Assembly: GCA_016235545.1 (NCBI GenBank)
Contig: JACRKB010000048.1
Coordinates: forward strand, 1-32,565
Length of the DNA: 32,565 nucleotides
Direction: 5' to 3'
Source of the DNA: Verrucomicrobiota bacterium
Lineage (GTDB): Bacteria; Verrucomicrobiota; Verrucomicrobiia; Limisphaerales; SXTU01
A program made the translations under genes and the position numbers. Positions 5,364-32,468 of the stretch are shown piece after piece. The notes under the pieces are model-generated. The model searched no databases, had not been told where the DNA came from, and saw nothing but the letters and a program-made list of their open reading frames with translations. Each line of letters opens with the position of its first letter. Positions within the stretch are counted from its first letter, which is position 1.

Positions 5364-5726
5364 TGGCAGGGCCCCATCACTAGCCGGAGCTCCGAAGTGG
5401 AATGGCCGCGAAAGGTTCCCCGCTGTTTCCAGTGGAATGGAGTCAGCGGGGAAATCCGCGCAGGAGTCGCGCATGAAGGTAGCCGGTGGGAAGCTCCGCC
5501 TGCGGAGCGCACGCACCGGGGTTGGCTCCAAGCGCACGGCGCCCCGTGCGGGGCGCATGAATCATCGCCCTGCCAAGGTGGGGCTGTGCCAAGATGCGCC
5601 CGGAGCAGAAGTCAGGAGCCAGGAATCGTCCGAATTCTGACTCCTGGCTCCTGACTTCCGTCTCCCCTCGGTGGCCGCTGTTTTTTCTATTTGCCCGGCG
5701 CGGGCTTTTGGTCAACATCGCCCACC
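5364..5726. other. Intergenic region with hairpins, no gene
   Basis: This 363-bp gap holds no convincing reading frame. It contains GC-rich hairpins at 5493-5508 (stem GCTCCGC) and 5539-5556 (stem GCGCCCCG, 2-base loop), and the heptamer hairpin at 5608-5658. A weak 5-bp stem followed by TTTT lies at 5693-5709. No sigma-70 promoter stands out ahead of the membrane-protein gene at 5727. Confidence 0.5.
5608..5658. repeat. Heptamer-array hairpin (GTCAGGA type)
   Basis: A perfect 17-base inverted repeat (5608-5624 and 5642-5658) has arms made of the 7-base units GTCAGGA and GCCAGGA. The loop is 17 bases. A single-armed relative of the same unit overlaps the end of the FKBP gene at 9197-9230. 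Confidence 0.8.
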
Positions 5727-6845
5727 ATGCAACGGCTTACATTTCAACGCGCGCTCGTCGCGGGGCTGGTCTGCCTGGCGGGTGTGTCGCTGGGCGCGGA
5801 ATTCAAATTGAAGGACGGGACTTTGCTGACTGGCGAGGCGCTCGGTGCCAACGAGAAGAGCGTCGTGATCAAGAACACCGAGGGCAAGATGTTGCCGCGC
5901 ACGGAATGGAGCAAATTCACGAAGGAGACGCTCAAGGAAATCGCGAAGAATCCGAAGATGCGCCAGTTTGTGGAGTTGCTCATCGAGGACGCCGCTCCCG
6001 CAGGTGTCGGCGCGGGCGGGGAGGTTGTCATCCCGGAAGTCGTGGCCTCCAAGCGCGAGTGGAAGAAGCCAAAGGAAGTGGCGGAGAAGCCCGTGTTGCC
6101 GGAAAAGCCGGGCATCATTGCCGGGGTGTTCACGACTGGCGTGGGCTGGTTGAGCCTGATCATCATCTATGCGGGCATCATCTACGCGGGTTTCGAGGTG
6201 GCCCTCTATCGTCGCCGTCCCAAGCAGCTGGTCATGGGCTTGTCCGCCATTCCCGGCATTGGCTTCTTCGCACCCATCGCCTTCCTCTGCATGCCGGCGG
6301 TGAAAACCGTGGATGAAACCAAGCCCAACGCCGTGGCGCAGGCCGCCGCGATACAGGCCGCCAAGGATGCGCAAAAGCCGGAGGAAAAACCCGCAGGCCC
6401 CGGCAAGAAAAAGCCAGGCCTCGCCTTCGGCAAGAAGTCAGACGAGGCCGCCCCCGCTGCCACCGGGCACAAACCCGTGGCCACCACCAAGCCCGGGGCC
6501 ACGGCCGCACCCGTCGCCGCCGCCTCGCCCGTGACTGCCCCCGCGCCGCAAGGCGCCCCGAAGCTCGAACCAGCCGTCTATCGTCGGGGCGAGACCAACA
6601 TCAACAAACGATTCATCGAAACCAAGTTCGGCGGCTTCTTCAAAGCCGTCCTCGGCCCCGCCGAGAAGGAGATGTGGCTCGTCTGGGTCACAGCCACCGG
6701 CGGCGAGTTCTGGAGCAAGCGCGTCGTCAGCATCAGCCAGACCGAGGTCGTTGTGAACTGCCCTCAGGAAGGCGGCGGCACCCTCGACCAGACCCTCCAA
6801 ATCGTCGAAGTCTCGGAAATCCACCTCCGTCCCCAGGAAGGCTGA
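5727..6845 (+). CDS. Membrane protein of unknown function with Ala/Pro/Lys-rich linker
   Basis: I do not recognise a family for this 372-residue protein. It starts with a signal-peptide-like segment (residues 1-22, ending VSLGAE). Next comes a region containing FKLKDGTLLTGEALGANEKS, reminiscent of the short beta modules found in many envelope proteins of this phylum. Two hydrophobic segments follow (about residues 132-153 and 162-186). A disordered Ala/Pro/Lys linker (about 200-280) leads to a soluble C-terminal domain (about 285-372). The ATG at 5727 is chosen because it gives the signal-like N-terminus; an in-frame upstream start at 5691 would add 12 residues with no such feature. The stop lies three bases before the adenylate kinase ATG, so the two are probably co-transcribed. 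Confidence 0.75.
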   Translation: MQRLTFQRALVAGLVCLAGVSLGAEFKLKDGTLLTGEALGANEKSVVIKNTEGKMLPRTEWSKFTKETLKEIAKNPKMRQFVELLIEDAAPAGVGAGGEVVIPEVVASKREWKKPKEVAEKPVLPEKPGIIAGVFTTGVGWLSLIIIYAGIIYAGFEVALYRRRPKQLVMGLSAIPGIGFFAPIAFLCMPAVKTVDETKPNAVAQAAAIQAAKDAQKPEEKPAGPGKKKPGLAFGKKSDEAAPAATGHKPVATTKPGATAAPVAAASPVTAPAPQGAPKLEPAVYRRGETNINKRFIETKFGGFFKAVLGPAEKEMWLVWVTATGGEFWSKRVVSISQTEVVVNCPQEGGGTLDQTLQIVEVSEIHLRPQEG

Positions 6846-6848
6846 CCC

Positions 6849-7430
6849 ATGAAGCTCCGCACCATTCTGCTCTTCGGCGCACCCGGTTCCGGCAAGGGCA
6901 CGCAGGGCAAAATCCTCGGCACCATCCCAGGATACTACCATTGCGCCTGCGGCGACGTGTTCCGCAACCTCAACGCCGACAGCCGCCTGGGCCACACCTT
7001 CCTCGATTACTCCAGCCGTGGCGAACTCGTCCCCGACGAGGCCACCGTGGACCTCTGGCGCAACAACATCCAGGCCAACACCATGCTGGGCCGCTTCAAC
7101 CCCGAGCGCGACACCGTCGTGCTCGACGGCATCCCGCGCAACGCAGCCCAGGCCCAGATGCTTCAGGGCACACTCGATGTCCGCGCACTTCTCCACCTCA
7201 CCTGCCCCGACCGGAACAAAATGATCGAGCGCCTCCAGCGCCGCGCCCTGCGCGACAACCGCCTCGACGATGCCAACCTCGACATTATCCGCACCCGGCT
7301 TCAGGTCTATGACCAGGAGACCAAGCCCGTGCTCGACTTCTACGGGCCAGACGTGGTCCGCGACATCAACGCCACCCAGACGCCAGTGGAAGTCCTCCGC
7401 GACATCCTCCGCGTCATCGCCACGCTCTGA
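6849..7430 (+). CDS. Adenylate kinase-family nucleoside monophosphate kinase
   Basis: This 193-residue cytosolic P-loop kinase has the adenylate kinase Walker A motif GAPGSGKGTQ at residues 10-19, the nucleotide-binding segment CGDVFR, and VVLDGIPRN in place of the usual DGFPR. It has a short LID (RRALRDNRLDDAN) instead of the long, often zinc-binding LID of most bacterial Adk proteins, so it resembles the short-LID form. The likely reaction is phosphoryl transfer between ATP and AMP or another NMP. It sits between a membrane protein (3-base gap) and a zinc-ribbon protein (2-base gap), not beside secY and map as the housekeeping adk often is. It may therefore be a second, specialised paralogue. 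The family is firm; the substrate is not. Confidence 0.85.
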   Translation: MKLRTILLFGAPGSGKGTQGKILGTIPGYYHCACGDVFRNLNADSRLGHTFLDYSSRGELVPDEATVDLWRNNIQANTMLGRFNPERDTVVLDGIPRNAAQAQMLQGTLDVRALLHLTCPDRNKMIERLQRRALRDNRLDDANLDIIRTRLQVYDQETKPVLDFYGPDVVRDINATQTPVEVLRDILRVIATL

Positions 7431-7432
7431 CC

Positions 7433-7648
7433 GTGGGCCGGCAGTTCAACGAGTTCAAGGCGTCGGAACTCCACTGCCCCAAGTGCGGCGTCTCCCAGCC
7501 CGTGCGCGAACGCGCCTCGGCGCTCCACGGCTCGCAGACCATTGAACTCCTCTGCTCACGCTGCGCCACCGTCGTCGGCCACCACACGGTGATTGACCAC
7601 AGCCTCGGCGGCAAACTGGCCAAGCTCGTCGGCAAGCTGCTCAAATAG
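7433..7648 (+). CDS. Small zinc-ribbon protein
   Basis: A 71-residue protein starting at GTG two bases after the adenylate kinase stop. Two CXXC knuckles (Cys15/Cys18 and Cys41/Cys44) form a zinc ribbon, followed by a short basic C-terminal helix (GKLAKLVGKLLK). No signal peptide or membrane segment is visible. The function is unknown; nucleic-acid or protein binding is typical of such domains. The tight spacing supports it as a real gene. Its stop TAG lies within the left copy of the 12-bp direct repeat that brackets the next repeat element. Confidence 0.75.
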   Translation: MGRQFNEFKASELHCPKCGVSQPVRERASALHGSQTIELLCSRCATVVGHHTVIDHSLGGKLAKLVGKLLK

Positions 7649-7739
7649 GAAGCCACAGATGGACACAGACAAGCACAGATGGAAATCGGTTCCCCTCTGC
7701 ATCTGTCTTCATCAGTGGCCATCACTGGCTCAAATAGGA
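7639..7739. repeat. Decamer-array hairpin flanked by 12-bp direct repeats
   Basis: The insert (7651-7727) begins with three units near CACAGATGGA (period 10) and ends with a degenerate complementary arm; 7651-7682 pairs with 7699-7730 at 23 of 32 positions. GCTCAAATAGGA occurs perfectly at both 7639-7650 and 7728-7739, directly bracketing it. This has the form of an insertion with target-site duplication. Removing one copy plus the insert places the zinc-ribbon stop TAG immediately beside the epimerase Shine-Dalgarno and ATG. Confidence 0.75.
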
Positions 7740-7740
7740 G
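7736..7740 (+). promoter_or_regulatory. Shine-Dalgarno AGGAG deciding the epimerase start
   Basis: AGGAG lies one base before the ATG at 7742, closer than the usual 5-9 bases, as part of TAGGAGCATG. It supports that ATG over the upstream in-frame ATG at 7679, which lies inside the repeat element. Most of the site lies within the right copy of the 12-bp direct repeat. Confidence 0.5.
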
Positions 7741-7741
7741 C

Positions 7742-8767
7742 ATGACCACCCCAGCCACCCTCGCCGAACTGGAAGACAGGCTCAGTGAGCCAGCCCCCGG
7801 CGTCATCGCCGCCCTCCGCGAACTTCCCGGCGACTTCCTCTTCCTTGGCGTCGCCGGCAAGATGGGCCCCACCCTCGCACGCATGGCCCGGCGCGCCTCC
7901 GACGCCGCCGGGACACGCCGCCGCGTCCTGGGCGTCTCGCGCTTTTCGGATGCCGCCCAAGCCGCCCATCTCAACGCCCACGGCATCGAGACGATCCGCT
8001 GCGACCTGATGGACGAGGAAGCCGTCGCGCAACTGCCGGACGTGGAGAACGTCGTCTATTGCGCGGCAATGAAGTTTGGCTCGACCGGCAACGAGTCGCT
8101 GACCTGGGCGATGAACACCTGGCTCCCCTCAGTTGTGTGCCGCAAATTCCGCCGCAGCCGCATCGCCGCCTTCTCCACCGGCAACATCTACGGCCTCGTG
8201 CCCGTCAGCAGTGGCGGCTCCGTGGAGACAGACTCGCCGCAGCCCCTCGGCGAATACGCCATGAGCTGCCTCGGGCGCGAGCGGATGTTCGAGCACTTCA
8301 GCCGCACGCTGGGCATCCCCACCGCCCTCATCCGCCTCAACTACGCCTGCGAGCTGCGCTACGGCGTGCTTGTGGACCTCGCGCGCAAAATCTGGGCCGG
8401 CCAGCCCGTGGACCTCGGCATGGGCTGGTTCAACTGCCTCTGGCAGGGCGACGCCAACGCGCACACGCTCCAGACCCTCGCGCTCACAGCCACGCCGCCG
8501 TTTGTGCTCAACCTCACCGGCCCCGAACTCCTGCGCGTCCGCGACGTGGCCGGGGAACTGGCCCGCCGGATGAGCCGCCCCGTGACCTTTACCGGCGCGG
8601 AAAGCAGCTCCGCATTGCTGAACAACGCCGCCCGGTGCCTCGGGCGCTTCGGCCCGCCCCGCGTGTCCGCCCAAGAACTGCTGGGCTGGGTGGCCGAGTG
8701 GGTGATGCGCGGCGGCCCCGACCTCGGCAAGCCCACCCACTTCGAGAGCCGCGACGGGAGATTTTGA
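7742..8767 (+). CDS. NAD-dependent epimerase/dehydratase-like protein with altered active site
   Basis: This 341-residue protein has the extended short-chain dehydrogenase fold. The Rossmann glycine motif is GVAGKMG (residues 36-42), followed by CDLMDEE and VVYCAAM, and AFSTGNIYG matches the active-site Ser segment. The YXXXK motif is changed: EYAMSCLGRE has Tyr172 but Cys176 where Lys is expected (codon TGC, read directly). Loss of that lysine usually abolishes or alters dehydrogenase chemistry, so this may be a binding protein or an atypical enzyme. The first 21 residues of the longest frame are excluded because they come from the repeat element. It probably belonged to a tight operon with the zinc-ribbon and adenylate kinase genes before the insertion. 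The sugar or other substrate is unknown. Confidence 0.8.
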   Translation: MTTPATLAELEDRLSEPAPGVIAALRELPGDFLFLGVAGKMGPTLARMARRASDAAGTRRRVLGVSRFSDAAQAAHLNAHGIETIRCDLMDEEAVAQLPDVENVVYCAAMKFGSTGNESLTWAMNTWLPSVVCRKFRRSRIAAFSTGNIYGLVPVSSGGSVETDSPQPLGEYAMSCLGRERMFEHFSRTLGIPTALIRLNYACELRYGVLVDLARKIWAGQPVDLGMGWFNCLWQGDANAHTLQTLALTATPPFVLNLTGPELLRVRDVAGELARRMSRPVTFTGAESSSALLNNAARCLGRFGPPRVSAQELLGWVAEWVMRGGPDLGKPTHFESRDGRF

Positions 8768-8795
8768 CCCGGAACGATTCCTCTGAACCAAAAAA

Positions 8796-8955
8796 CCGCA
8801 GTTGGTTCACGCAAAGGACGCGAAGGATGCAACGCCGAATGGCATTTCTTCCAAATGTAGGCGCCGGCAGTTCTCACCCAACGGGTGAGAGGTCGCGGTT
8901 TCAAGAGTCTTTTCCTTTGCGCCCTTTGCGCCCTTTGCGTGAGGTTCAACTGCGG
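8796..8955. repeat. Nonamer-array hairpin (CGCAAAGGA type)
   Basis: The left arm (8796-8826) is CCGCAGTTGGTTCA followed by CGCAAAGGA and CGCGAAGG. The right arm (8914-8955) has three 9-base units (CCTTTGCGC twice, then CCTTTGCGT) followed by the inverted outer sequence ending AACTGCGG. A small hairpin (CTCACCCAACGGGTGAG) lies in the roughly 87-base centre. Confidence 0.75.
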
Positions 8956-8963
8956 AATCTAGG

Positions 8964-9123
8964 CTGAACCCGACTTCCGAAGTTGGCCGCAAAAAGCGCA
9001 AGAAAACGCAAAGAAGACAGGGGCTTTCATCACATTGCCCGGAACTCTTTCACTCTGCGGACTCTTGGCCGCAATCTCCTCTCTTTGCGTTTTTTGCGGC
9101 CATTCCATTTCGGAGTTCGGGTT
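8964..9123. repeat. Second nonamer-type inverted repeat
   Basis: The left arm (8964-9016) pairs with the right arm (about 9078-9123). The inner parts carry TGGCCGCAAAAA followed by CGCAA-rich units; the left arm has one 9-base unit more than the right. The outer parts (AACCCGACTTCCGAA against TTCGGAGTTCGGGTT) are also complementary. It abuts the previous hairpin but differs in sequence. Confidence 0.65.
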
Positions 9124-9196
9124 GAAACCCTCCGGGTTTGGGGCAGCGCCTCGCCGAAGTCGCCAAAAGCTGAGATGCGCCCACGCGAATTGCACC

Positions 9197-9230
9197 CTGA
9201 CCTGACTCCTGACTTCTGACTCCTACTTCC
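9197..9230. repeat. Heptamer half-array overlapping the FKBP stop codon
   Basis: Degenerate units TGACTCC, TGACTTC and TGACTCC run in tandem. Read on the minus strand, the last of them supplies the TAG stop (9223-9225) of the FKBP gene. No complementary arm is present. Confidence 0.6.
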
Positions 9231-11157
9231 CAAGTATGTCGAGCAGCTCGATCTCGAAGTAGAGCACCTCGTTCGGGCCGATGCCGGGCGGGCTGCCGCG
9301 CTCGCCGTAGGCGAGGTAGTGCGGGATGAAGAGCTGCCACTTGCTGCCCTTGGGCATCAGCAAAAGCGCCTCAGTCCAGCCTTTGATGACTCCGGTCACG
9401 TCGAACTCGGCAGGCAGGTTCTTCTCGTAGGAGCTGTCGAAGATGCCGCCGGGCTGGAGGGTTTTCTTGTCTATCACCTTGCCGGTGTAGTGGACGCGCA
9501 CCTTGCTCTTCTCTGTGGGCAGCTTGCCAGAGCCAGCCGTGACCACGCGGTATTGCAGGCCGCTGGGGCGCTCGACGATGTCGGCCTGCTGCTTGTTCTT
9601 GGCGAGAAACTCCTTGCCGAGCTTGAGGTTGGTTTCGGGCATGTTCAGGTCCACCGAGGGCGGGATGTAGGTGGACGGGCGGTTGGTGCCGGCTTGCGCC
9701 ACCGCTGTGCCGGTGGCGGGCGCGGTGAGCCACGGCGCATTCTTGGGCACAGGCAGGTTCAGCGCGGTGAGCAGTTGCAGGCGCATCTGTGGATTCCAAC
9801 CCTCCCCAGCCGGGGCGTCAACGAGCCGGTCCAGCACCAGCTTGCGCAGCGTCGCCAGTGGCGGCAGGTCCACGCGGTCGCGCTCGGAGCGCTCGACCTT
9901 TTTCGCGTATTCGCGGTGAATCTCCCGGATGAGGCGCACGTAGCCCTGCGCGCGATCGTCCTCGCCGATGGCCAGCTCGTAGAAGTGCCGCATGAACATG
10001 CCCTCGATGGCGCTCTGCACCTTGTCCTTGCCCAGGTCCATCAGCTCCTTGTAGCGCTCCAGGACGAACTCGGTGACGGTCTGGCCGGGCTTGGTGTAGC
10101 GGCCGACGTATTTCTTCCCGAGGTAGTCGTGCCAGCGCGCGGCGTCCTGCTCACGGTTGTGCAAGTAAAGATCGGTGATGGCCTGCTTGAGGAAGTTCGC
10201 GTGCGCGTTCTTGATGTTGTCGAGGTTCGCCGGGTCGCCACCTTGCATCTGCTCGTAGCCTTCGTTCGCCATGGGGATGGCGACGAGGTTGGGGCCAAAC
10301 TCGAAAAACTTGTCCACCGGGTTGTAGATGAGCCGCCCGCGCTGCGCGGCGAGCTGCATGGACTGGTAGATGACCCGGCGCAGGGTGATGAGCTGCTCGG
10401 CCTTGGAATTCTTCAGGCCCAGGGAGGCCCAATAGACTGCGTGAGTCTCCGGGAGACGCCATTCGAGCGGGCCATATTGCTCGTCCACCTCGCGCGCGAG
10501 CTTTGGGTCCATCTTGTATTTTTCGCGGAGGAGTTTCGTGCGCAGCCTTGCCTCGTCGGTCTGCGGGCTGAGGAGCTCCTCCCAGTTGGGCTTGGACTGG
10601 CTGCCGAAGACCTCGGTCATCTGGCGCGCCCACTCGCGCTTGTAGGTCATGTGGGCGTTGTCGAGGTTCGCGCCCATCTTGTGCTGAAAGTGCCAGGCCA
10701 GCTCGCGGTAGATAAGCGTCTCATTCGGGTTGTATTTGAGCGCCTCGTCGCGCAGCAGCTCGATGCCGCGGTTGACCCAGAACCAGCGGTCGTTCGGGTC
10801 GGGGAATTTCACCGAGATGTTGTAGGAGAGGTTCCACGCCTGATGCACCCAGACGGCGACAAAGTGCGGCTGCATCTTTGTGATCCAGTCGGAGAGCTGC
10901 ACCATCTCAAAGTATTTCTCGTCGAGCTGGAGGTCGTTGAGACGGATCCAGAGCGCGTTGGAAACCAGTCCCCTGAAGCCGCCCAGCGCGACGGCGGTGA
11001 AGGCCATCGCCGGGGGCATGCTCTGGTCCGCCTCGACTCGTGTGAGCTTGAGGCGCGTGCGCTCGGCGGTCAGCTGGCGCTGGGCGAAGTTGACGCCGAC
11101 CAGCAGCACGAGCGCGAGCAGCGTGAGCAGGGGTTTGAAAAAGCGGCGATCGTTCAT
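9223..11157 (-). CDS. Membrane-anchored protein with C-terminal FKBP-type prolyl isomerase
   Basis: The 644-residue product starts with a signal anchor (FFKPLLTLLALVLLVG, residues about 6-21). A long, mostly helical domain (about 30-500) rich in Trp and Tyr follows, which I cannot assign. The last 115 residues are an FKBP domain: PSGLQYRVVTAGSG, KVRVHYTGKVIDKK, GGIFDSSYEK, VIKGWTEALLLMPKGSKW, FIPHYLAYGERG and GIGPNEVLYFEIELLDI. FKBP enzymes isomerise peptidyl-proline bonds and often act as chaperones; here the domain should face the periplasm. The ATG at 11157 follows the permease stop by one base (TGA-C-ATG), so it is preferred over an upstream start at 11214 that would overlap the permease. 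Coupling to the ABC exporter suggests it folds a product of, or assists, that exporter. Confidence 0.8.
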   Translation of the reverse strand: MNDRRFFKPLLTLLALVLLVGVNFAQRQLTAERTRLKLTRVEADQSMPPAMAFTAVALGGFRGLVSNALWIRLNDLQLDEKYFEMVQLSDWITKMQPHFVAVWVHQAWNLSYNISVKFPDPNDRWFWVNRGIELLRDEALKYNPNETLIYRELAWHFQHKMGANLDNAHMTYKREWARQMTEVFGSQSKPNWEELLSPQTDEARLRTKLLREKYKMDPKLAREVDEQYGPLEWRLPETHAVYWASLGLKNSKAEQLITLRRVIYQSMQLAAQRGRLIYNPVDKFFEFGPNLVAIPMANEGYEQMQGGDPANLDNIKNAHANFLKQAITDLYLHNREQDAARWHDYLGKKYVGRYTKPGQTVTEFVLERYKELMDLGKDKVQSAIEGMFMRHFYELAIGEDDRAQGYVRLIREIHREYAKKVERSERDRVDLPPLATLRKLVLDRLVDAPAGEGWNPQMRLQLLTALNLPVPKNAPWLTAPATGTAVAQAGTNRPSTYIPPSVDLNMPETNLKLGKEFLAKNKQQADIVERPSGLQYRVVTAGSGKLPTEKSKVRVHYTGKVIDKKTLQPGGIFDSSYEKNLPAEFDVTGVIKGWTEALLLMPKGSKWQLFIPHYLAYGERGSPPGIGPNEVLYFEIELLDILGK

Positions 11158-11158
11158 G

Positions 11159-13021
11159 TCAGCCCTTGCCCTGCGCCGTCGCCAGTTCACGCCGCGTGAA
11201 CGCGAGGATGCCAAACGCGGCGAAGATGCCGCCGATGAGGCACCAGATTTGCAGAACCGCCCGCAGCAGCGTCATCCACGACACGCTGCGGCCCGTGCTC
11301 AGTGCGTCGATCGGCGAGAAGGAATTCACCAGCGTCAGCACGTCGTGGGCGGTCTTGAAAAGCGGCACCATGATGAAGTCCACCGCGCCCAGCACGCCCT
11401 CGGGCACGCCGGTGTCGTGGTTCGTGCTGCCGAACGTGCCGTCCTTGACCACCGTGGCGATGGTGCCGCTGCTCATGCCCACGATCAGGACGGTGATGGA
11501 GAAAAAAGCGGCGACCGGGAAGGACAGGTAGCTTGCGCCGGCCAGCCCAACCGCCGCGAGCAGTCCCAGCCAGATGAAGACAATCGCCGTGCCGCGCGTG
11601 AAGTTCAGCCCGAAGCCGCTCTCGTGGTAGAGCACCTCCATCCCCTCCTCGAGGTCGAAGAGCACGGCGGCCTGGTTGGGATTTCCGAAGAGGATGAAGA
11701 GGCGGCCCTCCGCATCCAGAAGGTTCTTGAACTTGCCGCCCTTGACCGGGTCGGAGACGGGATTGCCCTTTTGGTCGAGCAGGTTGATGCCGAACTCGTG
11801 GAAGGTGTCGGTGGTGAGCGGGCGGCTGATGCGGACGCGGTTGGTCGCGTTGGGCGGGCCGATTTCCCACAGAGTCCCGTAAGTCTCAGGCTTGAGGCTG
11901 TATTGGGCGCTGCGGAACTTGACCCGGAGGTAGATGGGCGTGTTCTCCAACTGGCCGCGGGCCAGCCCGGTCTCGATCACCCACGGGCGAGTCTGCTGCG
12001 GCGGCACGGCCTGATACTGCGACTTGATGGCCTCCTTCACATCCTTGCGCACCTGTGCGAGGTCCGCGCCGTTGGCCACCGCGCCAATTTCCTTGATGCG
12101 CTCCTTCAGGACTTTCTCCACGTCGGCGTCAATGTCCGGCGGCACTTCCTTGAGCGAGCCTCGGGCGATGAGCAGCTCGTTCTTCAAGATGGCCTGCTGC
12201 TTGTCCGGCAGGCTCGCCGCGCGCCACTGGATGAGGAGGTAAATCGAAAGGCCGGAGAGGCCAAGCAGCACGAAGTTCAGCCCCATGATGCCGAGCCATT
12301 TGCCCAGCCAGATTTGCCAGCGGGCGATGGGCTTCACCGCGACCATCTGCATCGAGCAATCCTCCACATCTCGCGCCAGTGTGCCGGTGGCCAGCCAGAG
12401 CGTGACCAGGCCGAGGATCGCCGTGACCGCGCTGAGCGTGTAGGTGATCACGATCTGCACGAGGCCGCGCGCGGTGCCGTCGTGTTTCAGCGCGAGGGGC
12501 AGGCCGACGACCACGAGCACGAGCAGGACGGCGAGCACGGGCAGCAGGCGATAGCGCACTACGGCCTTGATGGTGAGCCGCGCGACGGCCAGCAACTGCC
12601 GCAAGCCCGCCGGCACGGTCAACAGTGCCGGGGCAACCCCAAGCCGCCACTCGGCGGGAATGTCCTCGCCGACGGCCTTGAACTTCGCGATGGCGTCAGC
12701 GGGAGAGGTGGCGGGAACAAGACCCTGATAGAAATAGCCGCGCTCCTGATACGCGCGGCTTAGAAGATAGTTTGCGCGCGCGCCGAAACAGGCCTGCAGA
12801 CCGACACCCACGGCGATGAGCAAACCAGAATTCTCGGAGACCAGCTTGGTGGCGATGAGCGCGAGCGTCACGTGGACGACGAGCAGCGCTGCGCCGGGAA
12901 GCCAGACGCGCATGGCCAAGGCCCAGCCCCAGGCAAGCATCGCCGCAGGCCATGAGAAGCCGTGCTTCACGGCGGCGAGGCCCTGGTGCGGATGCCTCAG
13001 GATTTCAAAATGGGCGGACAT
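11159..13021 (-). CDS. ABC-2 type permease with N-terminal DUF2628-like domain
   Basis: A 620-residue multi-span inner-membrane protein. Residues about 1-110 (FEILRHPHQGLAAVKHGFSWPAAMLAWGWAL, with later YQERGYFYQGL and the NYLLSRAY segment) resemble the DUF2628 family. From about residue 135 the protein looks like an ABC-2/NosY-type permease. It has paired membrane helices near 150-215 and 250-275, a periplasmic insert of about 170 residues (about 280-450), and three or four C-terminal helices with a PLFKTAHD segment. It follows the ABC ATPase with a 5-base gap and precedes the FKBP gene with a 1-base gap, so the three form a coupled unit. The exported substrate is unknown. The DUF2628 assignment is from pattern memory and moderate; the permease assignment is firm in type. 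Confidence 0.75.
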   Translation of the reverse strand: MSAHFEILRHPHQGLAAVKHGFSWPAAMLAWGWALAMRVWLPGAALLVVHVTLALIATKLVSENSGLLIAVGVGLQACFGARANYLLSRAYQERGYFYQGLVPATSPADAIAKFKAVGEDIPAEWRLGVAPALLTVPAGLRQLLAVARLTIKAVVRYRLLPVLAVLLVLVVVGLPLALKHDGTARGLVQIVITYTLSAVTAILGLVTLWLATGTLARDVEDCSMQMVAVKPIARWQIWLGKWLGIMGLNFVLLGLSGLSIYLLIQWRAASLPDKQQAILKNELLIARGSLKEVPPDIDADVEKVLKERIKEIGAVANGADLAQVRKDVKEAIKSQYQAVPPQQTRPWVIETGLARGQLENTPIYLRVKFRSAQYSLKPETYGTLWEIGPPNATNRVRISRPLTTDTFHEFGINLLDQKGNPVSDPVKGGKFKNLLDAEGRLFILFGNPNQAAVLFDLEEGMEVLYHESGFGLNFTRGTAIVFIWLGLLAAVGLAGASYLSFPVAAFFSITVLIVGMSSGTIATVVKDGTFGSTNHDTGVPEGVLGAVDFIMVPLFKTAHDVLTLVNSFSPIDALSTGRSVSWMTLLRAVLQIWCLIGGIFAAFGILAFTRRELATAQGKG

Positions 13022-17393: not shown

Positions 17394-17399
17394 GAGAAA

Positions 17400-17499
17400 G
17401 TTTCGGGTTTAGAGTTTCGAGTTTTGAGTTGTGCCGAAGCTCCGAATGGCCCGCGTGCGGCGGACGCCAACTCGAAACTCAAAACTCAAAACTCGAAAC
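17400..17499. repeat. Heptamer-array hairpin (AACTCAA type)
   Basis: The right arm (17469-17499) has four 7-base units related to AACTCAA/AACTCGA. The left arm (17400-17430) is the degenerate complement. The 38-base centre is unrelated. It fills nearly all of the 110 bp between the HflK-like stop and the metal ATPase start. The same unit occurs inside the PSD1 gene at 29826-29858. Confidence 0.85.
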
Positions 17500-18686: not shown

Positions 18687-19592
18687 TTACTTCTTGCCGG
18701 CAGGGCGGGCGGGGGAGTTGGTGGCGCGGAGCAGGTCGAAGGGCGGCGTGTTCTGGTCGAGAATCAGCGTGGCGCGCTCCTTCGAGACCTGTTCCATCGA
18801 GGAGAGTTTCTGGAGGAACACGGCGAGTTCCGGGTTTTGTTCGAGGGCCTTGTAAGCCTTCGCAGCCTCGGCCTCGGCCTTGCCGCGGAGGGTTGTGGCC
18901 TCGGCCTCGGCCTTGGCGAGTAGCTCGCTGCGGTCGCGGTCGGCCTTCGAGCGGATGATGCTCGCCTCGCGGTCGCCCTCGCCCTCGAACTGCTTCACGA
19001 GGCGCTGGCGCTCCTCCTTCATGCGCTCGAACACCTTTTGCGTGACGCTCTCCGGGAAGCCGAGGCGCTTGATGCCAAGGGATTTGATTTCGAGGCCGAA
19101 CTTTTCCTTCGCCGTGCCGGCCACCTGCTGGAGCATTTCCTTCTCGATGTCCTCGAACTTGAGCTGGGCGGGGTCGGTGTTGATGAAGTGGCTGAAGGGA
19201 TGGCGCCCGACGGCGGCGTTCTTGGCGCTGCGGATGAGGCTTTCGAGGTTGCGCTTCGCGTCGTCCACGCCGCCGGGGAAGCTGCGGTTGAACTTCTGGG
19301 GTTCGGTGATGCGCCAGCCGACATAGACGAGCACGAGCACGTTGCGCTGGTCGAGGGTCTGGGCCTCCTCGAACTTGCCCTCGAAGTTATGCACGCGGGC
19401 GTCGAATCGGTGGACTTTCTGGATGGGCCACGGGAGCTTGAGGTGCAGGCCGGACTTGATGATCCCCTCGTCGGCCTTGCCGAAGGTGGTGAGAAAGGCG
19501 ACCTCGTTCTGCCGCACCTGGAAGAGGAACGAGATGGAGCCGAAGATGAGTAGGATGACGAGGCCGAGGACGAAGGTTACTGGGTTGCGCAT
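18687..19592 (-). CDS. HflC-like SPFH protein
   Basis: This 301-residue protein has an N-terminal membrane helix (about 6-24) and then the SPFH domain (NEVAFLTTFGKADE, LHLKLPWPIQKVHRFDAR). The HflC-type segment RLGFPESVTQKVFERMKEERQRLV follows, then a long charged coiled coil with GKAEAEAAKAYKA repeats. It closely resembles HflC in length and layout. HflC partners HflK in an inner-membrane complex with most of its mass in the periplasm. It is followed after ten bases by the HflK-like gene and preceded by a third, larger SPFH gene across a hexamer hairpin. Assignment to the HflC class rather than a generic prohibitin-like protein is good but not certain. Confidence 0.85.
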   Translation of the reverse strand: MRNPVTFVLGLVILLIFGSISFLFQVRQNEVAFLTTFGKADEGIIKSGLHLKLPWPIQKVHRFDARVHNFEGKFEEAQTLDQRNVLVLVYVGWRITEPQKFNRSFPGGVDDAKRNLESLIRSAKNAAVGRHPFSHFINTDPAQLKFEDIEKEMLQQVAGTAKEKFGLEIKSLGIKRLGFPESVTQKVFERMKEERQRLVKQFEGEGDREASIIRSKADRDRSELLAKAEAEATTLRGKAEAEAAKAYKALEQNPELAVFLQKLSSMEQVSKERATLILDQNTPPFDLLRATNSPARPAGKK

Positions 19593-19620
19593 AGTCAGTG
19601 GGGGGCGGTCAGAGAGGGGG

Positions 19621-19724
19621 ATTGAGAGTAAGAGTAAGAGTAAGATTACGATTAAGATTAAGAGGAGGCAGGAGACGCGAAGCCGCTGTCGGCCTCTTAA
19701 TCGTAATCTTACTCTTAATCTCTC
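19621..19724. repeat. Hexamer-array hairpin (GTAAGA/ATTAAG type)
   Basis: The left arm (19621-19665) has three GTAAGA units running into ATTACG/ATTAAG units. The right arm (19693-19724) is complementary, with fewer units. The loop of about 27 bases is unrelated. It lies between the large SPFH gene and the HflC-like gene. Confidence 0.85.
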
Positions 19725-22712: not shown

Positions 22713-22795
22713 CCTGCTCGTAATCCTGATCCTAATCTTGCTCCGCTGCGGGGAACGGGAGGAGGAGCAAGATTAGGATCAGGGTTACGAGCAGG
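22713..22795. repeat. Hexamer-array hairpin (TAATCC/GATTAG type)
   Basis: The 32-base arms (22713-22744 and 22764-22795) match at 31 of 32 positions and consist of 6-base units such as TAATCC, TGATCC and TAATCT. The loop is 19 bases. It lies between the MlaD-like and ABC-2 permease genes; the rest of the 269-bp gap shows no gene. Confidence 0.85.
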
Positions 22796-24076: not shown

Positions 24077-24107
24077 GGGAATGGGGAATGGGGAACCGGG
24101 ATTGGGA
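24077..24107. repeat. Heptamer half-array (GGGAATG type)
   Basis: Four degenerate 7-base units (GGGAATG twice, GGGAACC, GGGATTG) run in tandem without a complementary arm. They occupy most of the 57 bp between the MlaF-like and MlaD-like genes. Confidence 0.7.
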
Positions 24108-24122
24108 AAAAGGGGCGCTTGT

Positions 24123-24911: not shown

Positions 24912-25772
24912 CTACATGAACAGATAGACCAGGATGAAAAGCGCGTCAGCCAGCACGCAGCCCGCGACGCTCTGCGCCACCGCGCGAGTGGTCGCATCGG
25001 AGACCTCCTCCAGCCGCAGGCGTTGCGCCAGGCCCTGATAACAGGTCACGGTCGCGATGATCGCTCCAAACGTCGCCGTCTTGAGACCGAGCAGCGCGAA
25101 ATCCTCCCACGCCAGCGCGCGGGCGATCTGGTTGAAGTAATCCCCCGGCAACAGCGGCACGTCCTGCAGGAACACGAAGAGATACCCGCTGACCACGGCC
25201 ACAAGGATCAGATAAACCGTCAGCGAAAAGATCGCCGCCGCCAGCCCGATCACCCGCGGCATGACGAGGTAATGCACCGGGTCAATCCCCAGCGCCTCCA
25301 GCGCCTCCACCTCGCCCTGCGCCCGGCTCAGGCCCAGCTCGATGACGATGGCCGTGCCCACGCGCGCCAGCACCACCAGCGCGGTGGCCAGCGGGCCGAG
25401 CTCGCGGATGAGGACCGTGACCATCACCGTGCCGGCGTATTGCTCCGCGCCCACTTTCTGGAGCAGCGAAACCGTCTGCCCCACTATCACCAGCCCCAGC
25501 GCCAGGCCCAGGAGCACGATGCCCGGCAGCAGCCGGACCCCGGCCCGATCAATCTGCGCGCGGATGAGAGGGTGGATGACGCGCCACGACGCGTTGAACT
25601 TCGTGAGCGTGACGCCCAGCGTGATGAGCGCGAAAGCGCCCACCCCCTGCATCGTCTGGAGCAGCCTGAAAATCTGGTGGCCGACGAAATTGAGGTAGCT
25701 CTGCGGCAGCGGCAGGGCCAGCACGCTTTGCAACAGCGCGGGCTTGGCCGGCGGGGCAGAGGCTGTTTCCAC
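24912..25772 (-). CDS. mlaE: MlaE-family ABC permease
   Basis: The 286-residue inner-membrane protein matches the MlaE/YrbE family: five or six hydrophobic segments, with the conserved motifs VLIRELGPLATALVVLARVGTA and EVEALEALGIDPVHYLVMPRVIGL. With MlaF and MlaD it would form the inner-membrane complex for phospholipid transport. It starts at GTG (25772); an in-frame TAA lies just upstream, so no longer form exists. It is the first gene of the minus-strand block and is divergent from GAPDH across 169 bp. The stop is three bases from the MlaF start. No mlaB or mlaC is visible. Confidence 0.9.
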   Translation of the reverse strand: METASAPPAKPALLQSVLALPLPQSYLNFVGHQIFRLLQTMQGVGAFALITLGVTLTKFNASWRVIHPLIRAQIDRAGVRLLPGIVLLGLALGLVIVGQTVSLLQKVGAEQYAGTVMVTVLIRELGPLATALVVLARVGTAIVIELGLSRAQGEVEALEALGIDPVHYLVMPRVIGLAAAIFSLTVYLILVAVVSGYLFVFLQDVPLLPGDYFNQIARALAWEDFALLGLKTATFGAIIATVTCYQGLAQRLRLEEVSDATTRAVAQSVAGCVLADALFILVYLFM

Positions 25773-27902: not shown

Positions 27903-27965
27903 GCGCGAAGGCCGCGAAGGGAGCGAAGGAGAAAGATGCCTTCGCCTCCTTCGCGGCCTTTGCGC
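27903..27965. repeat. Nonamer-array hairpin (CCTTCGCGG type)
   Basis: The left arm (27903-27929) and right arm (27939-27965) each hold three 9-base units and match at 24 of 27 positions, with a short loop. It lies between the divergent glycosyltransferase and PSD1 genes. Its right arm matches the half-array at 79-106. Confidence 0.85.
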
Positions 27966-28016: not shown

Positions 28017-31000
28017 ATGCCAGCTCTGACAACCAGCGCGCCCTTCTCCCACCGCCCGGTAGGGCGAGACTCCGTCGAGCCCCAATTCGCGCGGAGCGAG
28101 GCGAGCGCAGCGAGCATCTCTGGAGTCACAGCGCCCACCCGAGATGCTCGCTGTGCTCGCGCCTCCTGCGCCGGCGAATGGGGTTCGACGGAGTCTCGCC
28201 CTGCCAGCGGACGCGGGGCCGCCGCGCGTGCGTTCGTGCTTGGAGCTTGGGGTTTCTTTGGAGCTTTGGGCTTGGGTTTTGGAGCTTCCCCCTCCGAGTT
28301 CGACTTCTTCGAGCGCCGCATCCGCCCCGTGCTGGCGCAGCATTGCTACGAGTGCCACAGCGCTCAGAGCAAGTCGCTCAAGGCCGGCCTGCGCGTGGAC
28401 ACGCGCGATGGCCTGCGCCTCGGCGGCAAGTCCGGCGAGCCGGCCATCGTCCCGGGCGACGTGGAGAAAAGTCTTTTGCTCAAAGCCATCCGCCACACGA
28501 GCGCGGACTTGCAGATGCCGCCGAAGAAGAAGCTTTCGCTGCAGCAAGTCGCCGACTTCGACCAATGGATTCGCGCCGGAGCGCCGGACCCGAGGGACGA
28601 GAAGCCGTCAGCCGTCAGCGCTCAGCGGTCAGCGAAGACCCACTGGGCGTTTGTGCCGCCCAAGGACCAGCCGTTGCCGAAGGTGAAGGACAAGGCGTGG
28701 CCGCAGTCCCCGGTGGACCACTTCATCCTCGCGAAGCTGGAGGCCAGCGGGCTGAAACCCTCACCGCCCGCTGACCCGCGCGCGTTGATTCGCCGGATGA
28801 CCTACGATCTCACCGGCCTGCCGCCGACGCTGGAAGAGGTCGAGGCGTTCGTGAAGGAATTCTCACCTTCTCACTCTCCCACTTTCTCACCTGCTGGCGG
28901 GAAGGCAGGTGAGAAAGCGGGCAGGCGGGAAAGTGAGCAACGCGCCGTCGCCATGCTCGTGGACCGCCTGCTCGCCTCGTCGAACTACGGCGAGCGCTGG
29001 GCGCGGCACTGGCTCGACGTCGCGCGTTATGCGGACACCAAGGGCTACGTCTATGCGCGCGAAGAACGCTTCTTCACTCATGCCCACGCCTACCGCGACT
29101 GGGTCGTCCGCGCGCTGAACAGCGACCTGCCTTACGACCGTTTCCTCATGCTTCAGATTGCCGGCGACCAACTCGTCGAAGGGTCCAAAGTCCAAGGTCC
29201 AACATCCAAAGTCACAGAGGCTGCCGCCACCACGACGCCCTCCGCACTAATCACTAATCACTATTCACTTCCCGACTTGGCCGCCCTCGGCTTTCTGACC
29301 ACCGGCCGCCGCTTCATCGGCGTGACGCACGAGATTATTGACGACCGCATTGACGTGGTGACGCGCGGCACGATGGGCCTGACCGTCCAGTGCGCGCGCT
29401 GCCACGACCACAAATACGATCCCATCCCGACCACCGACTACTACTCGCTCTACGGCGTGTTCCAGAGCAGCGCCGACGAGCTGGTGCAGATTGAGTTCCC
29501 GGAAAAGTCTGACGCGCTGGCCGCCTTCGAGAAGGAACACCGCACCCGCCTCGACAAGCTGAACTCAACGCTGGCCGCGCGCCGCGATGAAACCACCGCC
29601 CGCGCCCGCGCCCGCGTGACGGAATACCTGCTCGCGCAGTTCGAGCTGCACAAATATCCGGAGGAGGGCTTCGACCAAATCCTCACCGACCAGGACCTCA
29701 TACCCACGACCGTCCGCCGCTGGCAGGCGTATCTGGAGCAGGCGAAGAAACGCGGCGACCCCGTGTGGGCGCTGTGGCACGCCAGCGCGCAATTGCCGGA
29801 GGAGAACTTCGCGGCGGCCAGCGCCCAACTCAAGACTCAAAACTCAAAACTCAAAACCATCCTCGCCCCGCCGCCCAAATCCATGCGCGAAGTCGCCGAG
29901 CGTTACGGCAAGGTGCTTTCTGACATTGAGCAGCAGTGGCAGGCCGCGCTGGCGCTCGCGAAGACGAACAATTCTCCCCCGCCCACAGCGCTGCCCGACC
30001 CGCAGGCCGAGGCGCTTCGCCAAGTTCTCCACGGTGCGAACTCGCCCGCCGTCGTCCCGCCCGACGGCATCGTCAACACGGAGCTGCTGCTCATCTCCAA
30101 GCACACGGAGGAACTCTGGAAACTCCAAGGCGAGGTGGACCGCCATCTCATCCGCACGCCCATTTCGCCGGCCCACGCGCTCATCGTCACCGACCGCGAG
30201 CCGAACGGAAACCCGCGCGTCTTCCTGCGCGGCGACCCGAAGAACAAGGGGCCGGAAGTGCCGCGACAGTTTCTGCAAGCCGTCGCCGGCCCGCAACGCC
30301 AGCCCTTCACGCAGGGCAGCGGGCGTCTCGAACTGGCCCGCGCCATCGCCAGCGCGGACAACCCGCTCACCGCGCGGGTGATGGTGAACCGGGTCTGGCT
30401 CCACCACTTCGGCTCGGGCCTCGTGAGGACGCCCAGCGACTTCGGCCTGCGCGCAGAGCTGCCCAGCCATCCCGAGCTGCTCGACTGGCTCGCCCGCCGT
30501 TTCATCGCCGAGGGCTGGAGTTTGAAGGCGATGCACCGGCTGATGCTGACGAGCGCGGCGTATCAGCAGAGCGGGGAGTTTTCAGTGTTCAGTAACCAGT
30601 ATTCAGTGGGGGCACCGGCGTCAGGGCGGCCCACTGAAAACTGGAAACTGAATACTGAACACTGGAAGCGGGCCGCCGCGCTCGACCCCGACAACCGCCT
30701 GCTCTGGCGCGCGAACCGCCAGCGGCTCGACTTCGAGGAGCTGCGCGATTCCCTGCTCATGGCCAGCGGCGAGCTGGACCCCAAGCCCGGCGGCAAGCCG
30801 GTGGACATCTTTGGCAGCAAACGCCGCAGCCTTTACGGCCTCGTGGACCGCCAGTATCTGCCAGGCGTCTTCCGCGTCTTCGACTTTGCAAATCCCGATC
30901 TTCACATCCCGCAGCGCCACGAGACGACGGTGTCGCAGCAGGCGCTCTTCTTCCTGAACCACCCGTTCGTCGCCGACCGCGCGAAGGCGTTCGTCGGAAA

Positions 31001-31769
31001 AAAAGATTTCACCGGCCTCAGCACGCCGGAGGAAAAGGTGCGGCTCCTCTACAGCGCGCTCTACCAGCGCGAGCCGACGCCGGGGCAAACCGCCGCCGCT
31101 GTGCGCTTCGTCGCAGACGCTGAGGCGAACCACCCGCAACCGCCGAAGCCGCCGCCTGAAAACCAGTGGCGCTACGGCTACGGCGAGTTCGATGAGGCCG
31201 CGCGCAGGCTGAAAAACTTTGCAGCGCTGCCGCATTACACCGGGCGCGCATGGCAGGGCGGCCCGCAGTGGCCGGATGCGAAGCTCGGCTGGGCACAGCT
31301 CACCGCCGACGGTGGCCATGCGGGCAACGACCTCCAGCACGCCGTCGTCCGCCGGTGGGTCGCGCCGCGTGATTGCGTCGTCAGCATCGCGGGCCGCATC
31401 GCGCACGAAACCAGCGCTGGTGACGGCGTGCGCGCGTTCATCACCCATAGCCGCGCCGGCCAGCTCCGCACCGTGACCGTGCACAACGCGGCGGAGGACC
31501 TGCGCGTCGCCAGCACCGCCGTGAAGGCTGGCGACACGATAGACTTCATCGTGGACTTCCGCGCGAACCTGAACAGCGACGAGTTCAAGTGGTCGCCCGT
31601 GCTCACCGAGTTGAACACCGCTGCCGCGACCGGGGCCGTGCCCGCGAAGCAGTGGGATGCGAAACAAGACTTCCGCGGCGCGGACGTGCTCGTGCTCCCG
31701 CCTCTCCCGCCGTGGGCTCAGCTCGTGCAAGTGCTGCTCTCGGCGAACGAGTTTCTCTTCGTGGACTGA
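28017..31769 (+). CDS. PSCyt1-PSCyt2-PSD1 protein (DUF1549/DUF1553) with repeat insertions
   Basis: This large exported protein (1250 residues from the ATG at 28017) has a planctomycete-type cytochrome domain (about 97-190, heme site Cys110-Cys113-His114). PSCyt2/DUF1549 follows (about 230-480: [51 protein letters not shown]), then PSD1/DUF1553 (about 780-1080: [50 protein letters not shown]). A C-terminal extension (about 1090-1250) looks like a beta-sandwich. Such proteins are abundant in Planctomycetes and Verrucomicrobia and are linked by context to polysaccharide or sulfated-glycan use; the reaction is unproven. A terminal-inverted-repeat element (residues about 14-63) lies before the signal-like helix (72-90). 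Six short tandem arrays are translated in frame near residues 74-91, 197-206, 282-307, 389-418, 604-614 and 855-884, between conserved blocks. The start is uncertain: the frame opens at 27840, and a GTG at 28236 would give just the signal-like segment. Confidence 0.85.
   Translation: [1250 protein letters not shown]
28058..28205. repeat. 148-bp terminal-inverted-repeat element, copy 2
   Basis: The 24-base ends (28058-28081 and 28182-28205) match at 22 of 24 positions and are the same as those of the copy at 2411-2551. The right halves of the two copies are clearly related (both contain GATGCTCGC and CTCGCGCC before the right end). An internal inverted repeat (AGCGAGCATCTC / GAGATGCTCGCT) makes this copy foldable along its length. 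It is translated at the N-terminus of the PSD1 protein. Confidence 0.85.
28238..28287. repeat. In-frame heptamer array (CTTGGAG type) encoding a signal-like helix
   Basis: Seven degenerate 7-base units (CTTGGAG, CTTGGGG, TTTCTTT, GGAGCTT, TGGGCTT and so on) run in tandem. In the reading frame they encode the hydrophobic stretch [16 protein letters not shown] of the PSD1 protein. Confidence 0.6.
28604..28634. repeat. In-frame heptamer half-array (CCGTCAG type)
   Basis: Four 7-base units (CCGTCAG twice, CGCTCAG, CGGTCAG) are translated as SAVSAQRSA between PSCyt1 and PSCyt2 of the PSD1 protein. Confidence 0.7.
28860..28937. repeat. In-frame array hairpin (TTCTCAC type)
   Basis: Units near TTCTCAC with a period of 7-8 (28861-28891) face a complementary arm ending GGGAAAGTGAG (28907-28936). 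Translation gives a Ser/Pro then Lys/Gly/Glu-rich segment just before [16 protein letters not shown]. Confidence 0.7.
29182..29270. repeat. In-frame pair of heptamer arrays (GTCCAAA and ACTAATC types)
   Basis: Two different 7-base arrays lie side by side: GTCCAAA/GTCCAAG/GTCCAAC/ATCCAAA (29183-29213) and ACTAATC/ACTAATC/ACTATTC (29245-29268). They are translated as [10 protein letters not shown] and ALITNHYSL within PSCyt2. Confidence 0.75.
29826..29858. repeat. In-frame heptamer half-array (AACTCAA type)
   Basis: Four units of AACTCAA/GACTCAA are translated as [11 protein letters not shown] between PSCyt2 and PSD1. The unit is the same as in the hairpin at 17400-17499. Confidence 0.8.
30579..30666. 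repeat. In-frame heptamer-array hairpin (TTCAGTA type)
   Basis: The left arm (30579-30610: TTCAGTG, TTCAGTA, ACCAGTA, TTCAGTG) and the right arm (30630-30665: ACTGAAA, ACTGGAA, ACTGAAT, ACTGAAC) are complementary. Translation inserts about 30 residues ([12 protein letters not shown] to LNTEHWK) inside PSD1, between AAYQQS and [11 protein letters not shown]. Confidence 0.85.
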
Positions 31770-31927
31770 GACTTCCTGTGCGGTCCCGTGCCCGCGACTT
31801 GCCGTCGCCGTCCCCTGCGCGCAGCACGCCCGACGGCGAGCGCAACTCGCCGGCACGATGCGCCCTCGTGCCTTTCACCTGCCACGAGTCACTTGTCACG
31901 CCACCGCTCCACGCCTAGACTCGCGGC

Positions 31928-32383
31928 ATGAAGAACGAAGTGGTGCCAGTGCAGATTCGCGGGATTCTCCCGGCGAACAGCGGCTGCGCCATCTTCGTGG
32001 GCAATGACGAAAAAGTCTTCGTCATCCAGGTCGAGCACAACCTCGGCGCGGTCATCGGCATGTTCCTGCGCGACCAGCCCAAGGAACGCCCGCTCACGCA
32101 CGACCTCATGGTCAACGTCTTCAAGGGCTTCGGCATCAGCGTCGAGCGCGTCATCATCACCGACCTGAAGAACTCGACCTACTTCGCGCGCCTCATCCTC
32201 AAGCAGGAGAACGAGCTGGGCAAAAAGTTCGTGGAGATTGATGCACGCCCAAGCGACTGCCTCGCCCTGGCTGCAGCGCACAAGCGCCCCGTCTTCGTCA
32301 CCAAGGCGCTCTTCGAGCAGGTCGAGGACATGACAGAGTATCTGGACAAGCTGAACGAAGGAACGGGCGAGCAGGAAGCCTGA
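31928..32383 (+). CDS. Bifunctional nuclease (DUF151) family protein
   Basis: The 151-residue protein matches the BFN/DUF151 family, with a central LKNSTYFARLIL and the signature FVEIDARPSDCLALAAAHKRPVFVTKALFE. Family members in plants have been described with DNase and RNase activity, but most bacterial members are uncharacterised and are often annotated only by this name. No signal peptide is seen, so it should be cytosolic. It begins 158 bp after the PSD1 stop, with no clear promoter in the gap, and is followed by a heptamer hairpin. The family call is firm; nuclease activity here is inferred. Confidence 0.88.
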   Translation: MKNEVVPVQIRGILPANSGCAIFVGNDEKVFVIQVEHNLGAVIGMFLRDQPKERPLTHDLMVNVFKGFGISVERVIITDLKNSTYFARLILKQENELGKKFVEIDARPSDCLALAAAHKRPVFVTKALFEQVEDMTEYLDKLNEGTGEQEA

Positions 32384-32386
32384 GGG

Positions 32387-32468
32387 GGGAAAGTAATTAG
32401 TGATCAGTAATCAGTGCCTGCTCCGAACCCACCGCGCCGACTAAGCACTAATTACTAATTACTTTCCC
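32387..32468. repeat. Heptamer-array hairpin (TAATTAC/AGTAATT type)
   Basis: The left arm (32387-32417) has units AGTAATT, AGTGATC, AGTAATC. The right arm (32445-32468) has CTAATTA twice. The outermost GGGAAAGTAATTAGT is perfectly complementary, and the left arm has one 7-base unit more than the right. It fills the gap between the BFN gene and the next start. Confidence 0.85.

Follow-up and report, generated by a model that had tools for sequence, protein, structure and literature searches.

What are the short tandem arrays, many of them paired as inverted arms, that recur along one contig of a verrucomicrobial draft genome, and are they fixed features of the sequence or replaceable ones? The contig (JACRKB010000048.1 of assembly GCA_016235545.1; "the window" denotes its whole length of 32,565 nt) is contig 288 of the host genome G000 (5.01 Mb, 311 contigs, 95% complete), which we compared with ten congeners, G001-G010. 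A first-pass annotation had described at least 18 array loci here as one hairpin architecture built from unrelated sequences. We find that the arrays lie far above chance and that they form more than one class, at least a transposon-arm class (class A) and a heptamer class (class B). Because the repeated word at one place often differs between relatives, the arrays look replaceable and partly mobile rather than random stutters. Our preferred reading, foldback-like mobile elements whose slots turn over, stands ahead of concerted evolution in place, and we hold it tentatively, at slightly less than an even chance of being right.

Abundance of short-period arrays

Tandem Repeats Finder reported rows at 15 of the 18 loci named in the annotation, reaching the locus at 7651 through its second arm only, and gave no row at 79, 8964 or 28238. 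A gap-free strict scan passes eight of them (8796, 17400, 19621, 24077, 28604, 29182, 29826 and 30579), 8796 and 30579 by the second arm and 29182 by a second array. The array at 28860 has a period of 8, not 7. With dinucleotide-preserving shuffles as controls, the window contains seven period-7 arrays against none in 30 shuffles, three against none at period 6, and two against none at period 9; the arrays scored at 18897 and 29597 (period 6) and at 25289 (period 9) consist of GC-rich sequence within open reading frames (ORFs) and are absent from the earlier list. A host sample of 396,718 bp holds 44 period-7 arrays where 0.6 were expected (five shuffles), at densities that are biased because its contigs were picked for AACTGAA array matches. 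Across 1.43 Mb from ten genomes, period-7 arrays number 135 and a single shuffle gives none; periods 6, 8 and 9 are also in excess, to a smaller degree. Other stretches were picked either for the size of their contig or on account of an earlier match (protein, domain or pattern) that pointed to it. Random-sequence controls of the same composition, which the annotation had proposed, thus yield about zero period-7 arrays, which rules out a random-sequence origin and confirms that the dispersed arrays are real.

Pairing is also far from random, since 93 of 308 arrays have a reverse-complement partner within 150 nt (score at least 11) against 4 when flanks are swapped between loci. In 525 kb of host sample, a home-made gene caller placed 44 period-7 arrays in intergenic DNA (72.6 kb), 31 in coding DNA (452 kb) and 6 at gene edges. 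The units are drawn from a limited vocabulary, whose words return at different loci and in different genomes, so the description of their sequences as unrelated was wrong; the shared inverted-array form stands, while the idea of a single class does not, since the transposon-arm and heptamer classes differ. The window has no Rfam gathering matches. A wider contig scan, from which records near the window were possibly excluded, kept 80 loci, none at congener level and with best-segment identity of at most 51%.

Changing words at fixed slots

Turnover can be read at the same codons in a gene with five in-frame array slots:

28272-31769, plus strand: PSCyt1-PSCyt2-PSD1 (DUF1549/DUF1553) gene
28603-28634, plus strand: slot S1, CAGCNNT array
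28860-28942, plus strand: slot S2, octamer GAGAAAGTG hairpin
29183-29269, plus strand: slot S3, GTYCAAR arm and CACTAAT arm
29827-29857, plus strand: slot S4, AACTCAA array
30576-30664, plus strand: slot S5, CAGTNNN hairpin, 32+25+32 nt

At S5, the CAGT hairpin is present in G000, G001 and G007 and a GAATTCC array in G002, G006, G008 and G009; G005 has a GTCGAGA hairpin, G004 a reduced form of it, and G010 a different hairpin. Array length is stable within the first two groups, at 114 bp and 45 bp, respectively. The CAGCNNT array of S1 in the host is matched at the same codons by a GTYCAAR array in G004, G005, G006 and G007. S2 carries a CAATCGG array in G002, G004, G005 and G008 that is decayed in G001 and G003, and S3 carries CTCAACT or GTTTCGG/AAACTCC in other species. 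S4 is mostly of the AACTCAA family, with unrelated longer inserts in some species. In three outgroup members, drawn from other families, the loops at S2 and S3 are short. Around S3, G002 and G008 share 96-100% identity in the left flank at distances of 100 to 600 nt and 70-80% in the last 100 nt; in the right flank, identity is 92% and then 94-98% up to 450 nt. This dip points to a short replaced tract, most simply produced by gene conversion. The S2 octamer hairpin also occurs in three host paralogues that are 46-48% identical to the window gene (four of ten, counting the window gene), which suggests permissive loops, conversion between paralogues or targeting.

Other genes behave similarly. 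At a DUF1501 slot, G000, G002 and G004 carry CATCYCC and G001 a short form; G006 and G008 carry CAATCGG, G008 retaining a CATCCCC remnant. Nine species could be compared at the MutY slot, which lies immediately ahead of the conserved CSALNQSLMELGATLCTPQN stretch (G003 gave no comparison). The slot carries AGTG-type words in G001, G002, G008 and G010, CGTAAT-type words in G005 and G006, GGATGCT in G004, GTTGAGR in G000 and a decayed stretch in G007. Family switches at the same slot are found at S1-S3, S5, S6 and MutY. Along a block shared by G000 and G006, seven of eight slots are comparable, slot 14725 having no ortholog call: two are empty in G006, one holds the same family, one is shifted with both arms, and three differ; the comparison at slot 14160 is loose because its right anchor lies 452 nt away. 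Orthologous sites, whose comparison the annotation had called for, do reveal gain or loss, as with the CAGT hairpin at L035:4723, which is absent from six of six aligned congeners.

Two side observations belong here. At L043:1194-2267, HAD and NUDIX domains share one ORF with a CTCAACT array in the linker, possibly an array-mediated gene fusion. A small contig, G033:C140 (L054), is 95% identical to G003 over the DUF1553 gene in a bin placed in another family, and is probably a stray.

A miniature transposon with different arms

Class A, with units of 9-11 bp, is a mobile element, a miniature transposon (miniature inverted-repeat transposable element, MITE) with 4-bp target duplications. The 11-mer hairpin at L037:9947 is dispersed, with 41 of 47 host matches covering at least 142 bp at 80-100% identity. 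The congener search, which left out G009 and G010, found best matches of 32-45 bp, arm only, in seven species (G001-G004 and G006-G008), and G005 has its own diverged subfamily at about 70-75% identity. The ends, RCCGGAAC..GTTCCGGY, were defined from 20 host copies of this element, which is about 200 bp long, and may indicate IS5/Tourist kinship. A 14-nt end pattern has 51 host matches against 1 for a control pattern, and YTNA duplications are perfect in 11 of the 20 copies (permutation mean 1.69, maximum 7).

From 30 loci around ends, together with host stretches, we recovered 23 elements with both ends, five of them composite or longer; 19 of the 23 span 150-215 bp end to end. With L034 refiled, the arms of these 19 comprise 12 CACGGAT 11-mers, 3 CACRAAG, 1 GCGAAGG, 1 CGCAGAG and 2 GC-rich non-tandem types. 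Left-right arm scores within one element range from 14 to 26.5 and reach at least 20 in 16 of 19, against a mean of 12.4 between copies of different type (the cross-element maximum of 50 is inflated by an unturned L034). Four of the seven non-CACGGAT elements keep a CAC(C/T)(G/T)TTTGGTG core, two have a looser form and one has none. One scaffold, defined by its ends, its length and often a CACCGTTTGGTG core, thus carries different arm families in different copies; since arms match within a copy and differ between copies of different type, they are apparently exchangeable pairs.

The arrays of 9- and 10-bp units in the window, with no strand assigned, are as follows:

79-141: 9-mer array CCTTCGCCTCCTTCGCGGTCTTCGCGCGA, then a terminal-repeat-like end CAACTGCATGGTTGGCTAA, read from the sequence
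7639-7736: 10-mer inverted array of the CACAGATGGA type
8767-8967: miniature transposon copy, 9-mer CGCAAAGGA inverted arms and CCGCAGTTG ends
8967-9120: second miniature transposon copy, 9-10-mer arms
27903-27964: 9-mer (GCGAAGG) inverted arms with GGGATTC-like outer ends

The loci at 79, 8796 and 8964 carry transposon-like ends. The first is probably a one-ended transposon remnant, its end resembling the RCCGGAACCATGCAGTTGA terminal repeat in an imperfect match judged by eye. The copy at 8767-8967 has CTGA at 8783 and 8964, with a CCGGAACGATTC terminal-repeat-like stretch just outside the left CTGA. Its neighbor at 8967-9120 has the ends AACCCGA.TTCCGAA / TTCGGAGTTCGGGTT and GGCCGC, with related ends at L028:11181 and L341.

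Some further elements were seen in passing. A 12-nt direct repeat, GCTCAAATAGGA, lies on both sides of the 7639-7736 array and may represent a long target duplication. Another dispersed element, about 140 bp in length, occurs as inverted copies at L035:9598-9751 and 11207-11348; among the matches listed, many copies of about 90% identity are in G002 and G010 and some in G001, G006 and G008. At L143:4897 (G006:C123) and L081:10968 (G001), a GCGAAAGG/GTGAGAGGG-type hairpin is nested in the centre of a CACGGAT hairpin, and the two centres are related. L080:8056-8134 (G002) is a single-sided array of about eight tandem CATCTGTGTT 10-mers.

Heptamer hairpins with fixed polarity

Outside the slot-bearing gene, the window holds the following heptamer and hexamer arrays, again without strand:

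5608-5665: heptamer hairpin, 17-nt arms GAAGTCAGGAGCCAGGA and TCCTGGCTCCTGACTTC, between ORFs
9197-9229: single array of TGACTCC heptamers that runs into the 3' end of minus-strand ORF 9223-11214
17399-17499: heptamer hairpin GTTTNGA ... AACTCRA, with five cores in each arm, which fills the interval from one minus-strand ORF (17393) to the next (17504)
19620-19721: hexamer (GAKYAN) hairpin that takes up the space between the ORF boundaries at 19592 and 19728
22713-22795: hexamer hairpin with near-perfect arm complementarity, polarity opposite to that at 19620
24077-24108: single heptamer array GGGANNN, between ORFs
32387-32463: AGTAATT/AGTGATC hairpin, directly after the ORF ending at 32383

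Class B is real and ordered. AGT lies in the left arm of 26 of 38 period-7 hairpins and ACT in that of 1. In the 146 genomes of the order covered by our pattern and domain counts, CAGT..ACTG hairpins occur in 10 (118 overlapping matches) and the opposite polarity in none. Among 23 CAGT hairpins, five cores are present in 15 right arms and 11 left arms, 14 centres measure 22-29 nt, and 7 copies have a total length of 89 bp. The preferred layout is five cores, 25 nt and five cores, and 89-bp copies are found in genomes of several families. Simple slippage, one of the generators first proposed, does not explain this strict polarity and preferred geometry, nor does it sit well with the stable length of S5 between species. 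The centres of 86 hairpins show a mild excess of GAACGC (in 14, 3.5 expected) and CGCGTTC (in 10, 1.5 expected); TCCGAA is also mildly in excess.

We also considered arm pairing as a conserved feature of CAGT hairpins and found it weak, with a mirror identity of 0.567 against 0.516 permuted (p 0.04), or 0.692 against 0.615 at the best offset (p 0.001). CAGT hairpins show no complementarity between their outer flanks (p 0.29) or between the ends of their centres (p 0.95), though a looser AGT set gives p 0.03 for outer flanks. In a fixed-core test that included some loci chosen by the AGT pattern, variable columns are concentrated within arrays (103 against 137 expected); columns with at least three bases are not in excess (11 against 15.7), and therefore duplication of variant units may explain the concentration.

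AGT-type arrays occur in 86 of the 146 genomes, a survey whose reversed-pattern control is not neutral because TGANNNN is itself a real heptamer family. Within genera, matches range from 0 to hundreds, and the host is one of the two most array-rich genus members searched. Elsewhere in the order, G023 (L091, L145-L153) has 472 matches to a TGA-type heptamer pattern, with none in its congeners G078 and G107.

Proposed mobile elements and rival readings

Under the preferred reading, the arrays would be the visible part of small non-autonomous inverted-array elements. The 6-8-bp kind may be foldback-like in function, consisting of two convergent short-core arrays around an arbitrary centre, and the repeated core would most likely be a multiple binding site of a putative trans-acting recombinase or transposase. 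Elements of this 6-8-bp kind would reach permissive places such as intergenic gaps, protein loops and linkers, and then persist as slots. The family in a slot could change when new arrays enter or overwrite old ones, through gene conversion from other strains, or through homogenisation of units between and within arms; within genes, only in-frame, stop-free versions would survive.

Several observations weigh against this reading. Apart from the mild word excess, the short centres of different copies seem unrelated (their mean score is 5.97 and that of shuffled sequences 5.83, with top scores of 15 and 12), and therefore no recent copying of whole heptamer hairpins is seen. No clear target duplication is present in 35 pooled heptamer hairpins, where 4-nt matches at any one offset reach no more than 3 of 35 (permutation 95% level 2), at most a trace; a like scan of MITE copies gives 10 of 19. 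Heptamer hairpins have no shared flanks beyond AAGTATT, and hexamers and octamers lack a consistent polarity. For class A, duplications in G005 are weaker (4 of 12 perfect, p 0.08 on mean matches), and no transposase was found for the MITE in a search limited to the Y1 family, with no IS5-type transposase search made. Finally, changes such as that at the DUF58 slot may be gradual drift of one unit.

Such drift is central to in-place concerted evolution, which we regard as possible though distinctly less probable. Hairpins would originate rarely, slippage within arms and template switching between arms would spread unit variants, and the hairpin as a whole would drift towards another word, its place, polarity and length being handed down, with no need for heptamer mobility. 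This accords with the DUF58 slot, where both arms changed together (GTTCTGA in G000, GTTCAAA in G006), and with the close mirroring of arms at 5608 and 22713, the likeness of the MITE arm words CACGGATGGAA, CACGAAGG and CGCAAAGG, the concentration of variable positions in arrays, and the AGTG common to the MutY words of four species. However, CAGT arms mirror each other only slightly, empty sites exist, switches at one site from hexamer to heptamer or from CAGT hairpin to GAATTCC are not drift, and an 89-bp layout common to several families is left unexplained.

It is improbable, in our judgment, that the convergent arrays are cellular binding sites, bound by a regulator or nucleoid protein and kept by selection. 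While preferred core number and spacing would suit such a role, as would the published proposal for the paired repeats of Geobacter metallireducens in the passages of PMC2700814, the families turn over at the same place, called genes contain 31 of the 81 period-7 arrays of the host sample, and the CAGT hairpin pattern has no match in G004 and G010 but 41 overlapping matches in G006.

Somewhat more doubtful still is that an unrecognised process in this order may rewrite short inverted arrays in place. Its agent would recognise an existing array or hairpin and replace the units of both arms from another template, so that slots would stay in place while their words change, anywhere from protein linkers to transposon arms.

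The annotation had also named template-copying enzymes and single-strand transposases as possible generators. That a reverse transcriptase, a Y1/RAYT transposase or an end-joining polymerase writes the arrays from templates now seems very unlikely, although fixed polarity and a limited word list would fit. PF01797 (Y1 transposase) is detected in 124 of 146 genomes, PF00078 (reverse transcriptase) in 64 and Ku in 23. The array-rich host has PF01797, whereas PF00078 and Ku were not detected in its 95% complete assembly; divergent reverse transcriptases outside PF00078 and Ku-independent routes remain conceivable. Y1 itself was not detected in the array-bearing draft assemblies G004, G021, G028 and G039. 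Among the 96 genomes entered in the correlation analysis, AGT arrays correlate with genome size (0.49) and, by raw rank, with Y1 (0.29, or 0.40 with a second pattern added); with genome size allowed for, the partial correlation with the near-universal Y1 falls to 0.03 (0.18 with the second pattern), so that Y1 does not track array number as the annotation had envisaged and as REP/REPIN elements track their RAYT. Arrays show no association with reverse transcriptase (p 0.65, 0.21) or Ku (p 0.24, 0.22) in these genomes. Host non-detection and correlations thus leave all three enzymes unsupported as drivers. Chance, base composition or codon periodicity has practically no standing: coding DNA gives some hits at periods 6, 9 and 12, but the shuffles refute it for period 7.

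Relation to known systems

Dispersed heptamer repeats have been reported since about 1990; to our knowledge, they occur in several phyla and have no accepted origin. The short tandemly repeated repetitive (STRR) heptamers of heterocystous cyanobacteria are dispersed, degenerate 7-bp tandem units, a description that also fits the arrays here, in a host whose protein matches are of Verrucomicrobiota/Planctomycetota type and which is not a cyanobacterium. Class B shares with foldback elements its inverted tandem-repeat arms and a middle unrelated between copies, without their clear target duplications. Galileo, like Tetris, is a foldback transposon. As described in parts of PMC4079207, Tetris has tandem-repeat inverted arms, a variable middle and extra transposase sites in its repeats; foldback transposons are eukaryotic, large and flanked by target duplications, whereas the heptamer hairpins here are about 89 bp with no clear duplication.

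Bacterial repeats offer partial parallels, each drawn from portions of the cited source. The GGGAATC heptamers of Xanthomonas and Nostoc resemble ours in a four-unit mode, 70 and 75 convergent pairs and a degenerate GGGANTN unit, but constitute a single G-rich family interpreted through G-quadruplexes (PMC4692102). The TAACTGA heptamers of Beggiatoaceae are likewise found in several phyla, some in ORFs, with no known mechanism, and differ in being direct repeats with one indirect example (PMC4679880). BrickBuilt and MITE464 of Porphyromonas gingivalis are MITEs with similar ends and different internal tandem repeats, which are direct and 23 and 41 nt long, in contrast to the paired inverted arms described here (PMC4596501). 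Bacillus repeats combine constant size with variable sequence and several families per genome, but measure 20-21 or 52 nt and are direct, with no inverted pairs described in the parts concerned (PMC8161180). For the paired tandem repeats on opposite strands in G. metallireducens, which are read as regulator binding sites, the passages of PMC2700814 contain no comparison of orthologous sites.

The nearest parallel to slot turnover is the heptanucleotide hairpin P6b of the Nostoc tRNALeu(UAA) intron, with Class I (TDNGATT) and Class II (NNTGAGT) repeats (portions of PMC4476775 and PMC3488679). Like our arrays, it has heptamer arms in which some positions are fixed and others vary, and a site that can hold either of two word families, one of which has repeatedly and independently replaced the other; its repeat number is described in those portions as conserved within lineages. 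The Nostoc hairpin occupies a single site of a single RNA gene and is required for the intron to fold, whereas the slots here are many and genome-wide, in protein genes and on a transposon scaffold. With eleven genus members to compare at the same codons, one can read polarity, preferred geometry, sites left empty, switches of family and a transposon whose arms look exchangeable. The question of origin thus becomes testable, and array elements are seen to reshape the conserved proteins MutY, DUF1553 and DUF1501 in frame. Among the open-licence titles and abstract openings listed, none describes genome-wide slot turnover or exchangeable paired arms, a weak argument for novelty. What is already in print covers heptamer repeats, their convergent pairing and the replacement of heptamers in a single Nostoc intron; the genome-wide turnover of slots and the exchange of arms look like a new form.

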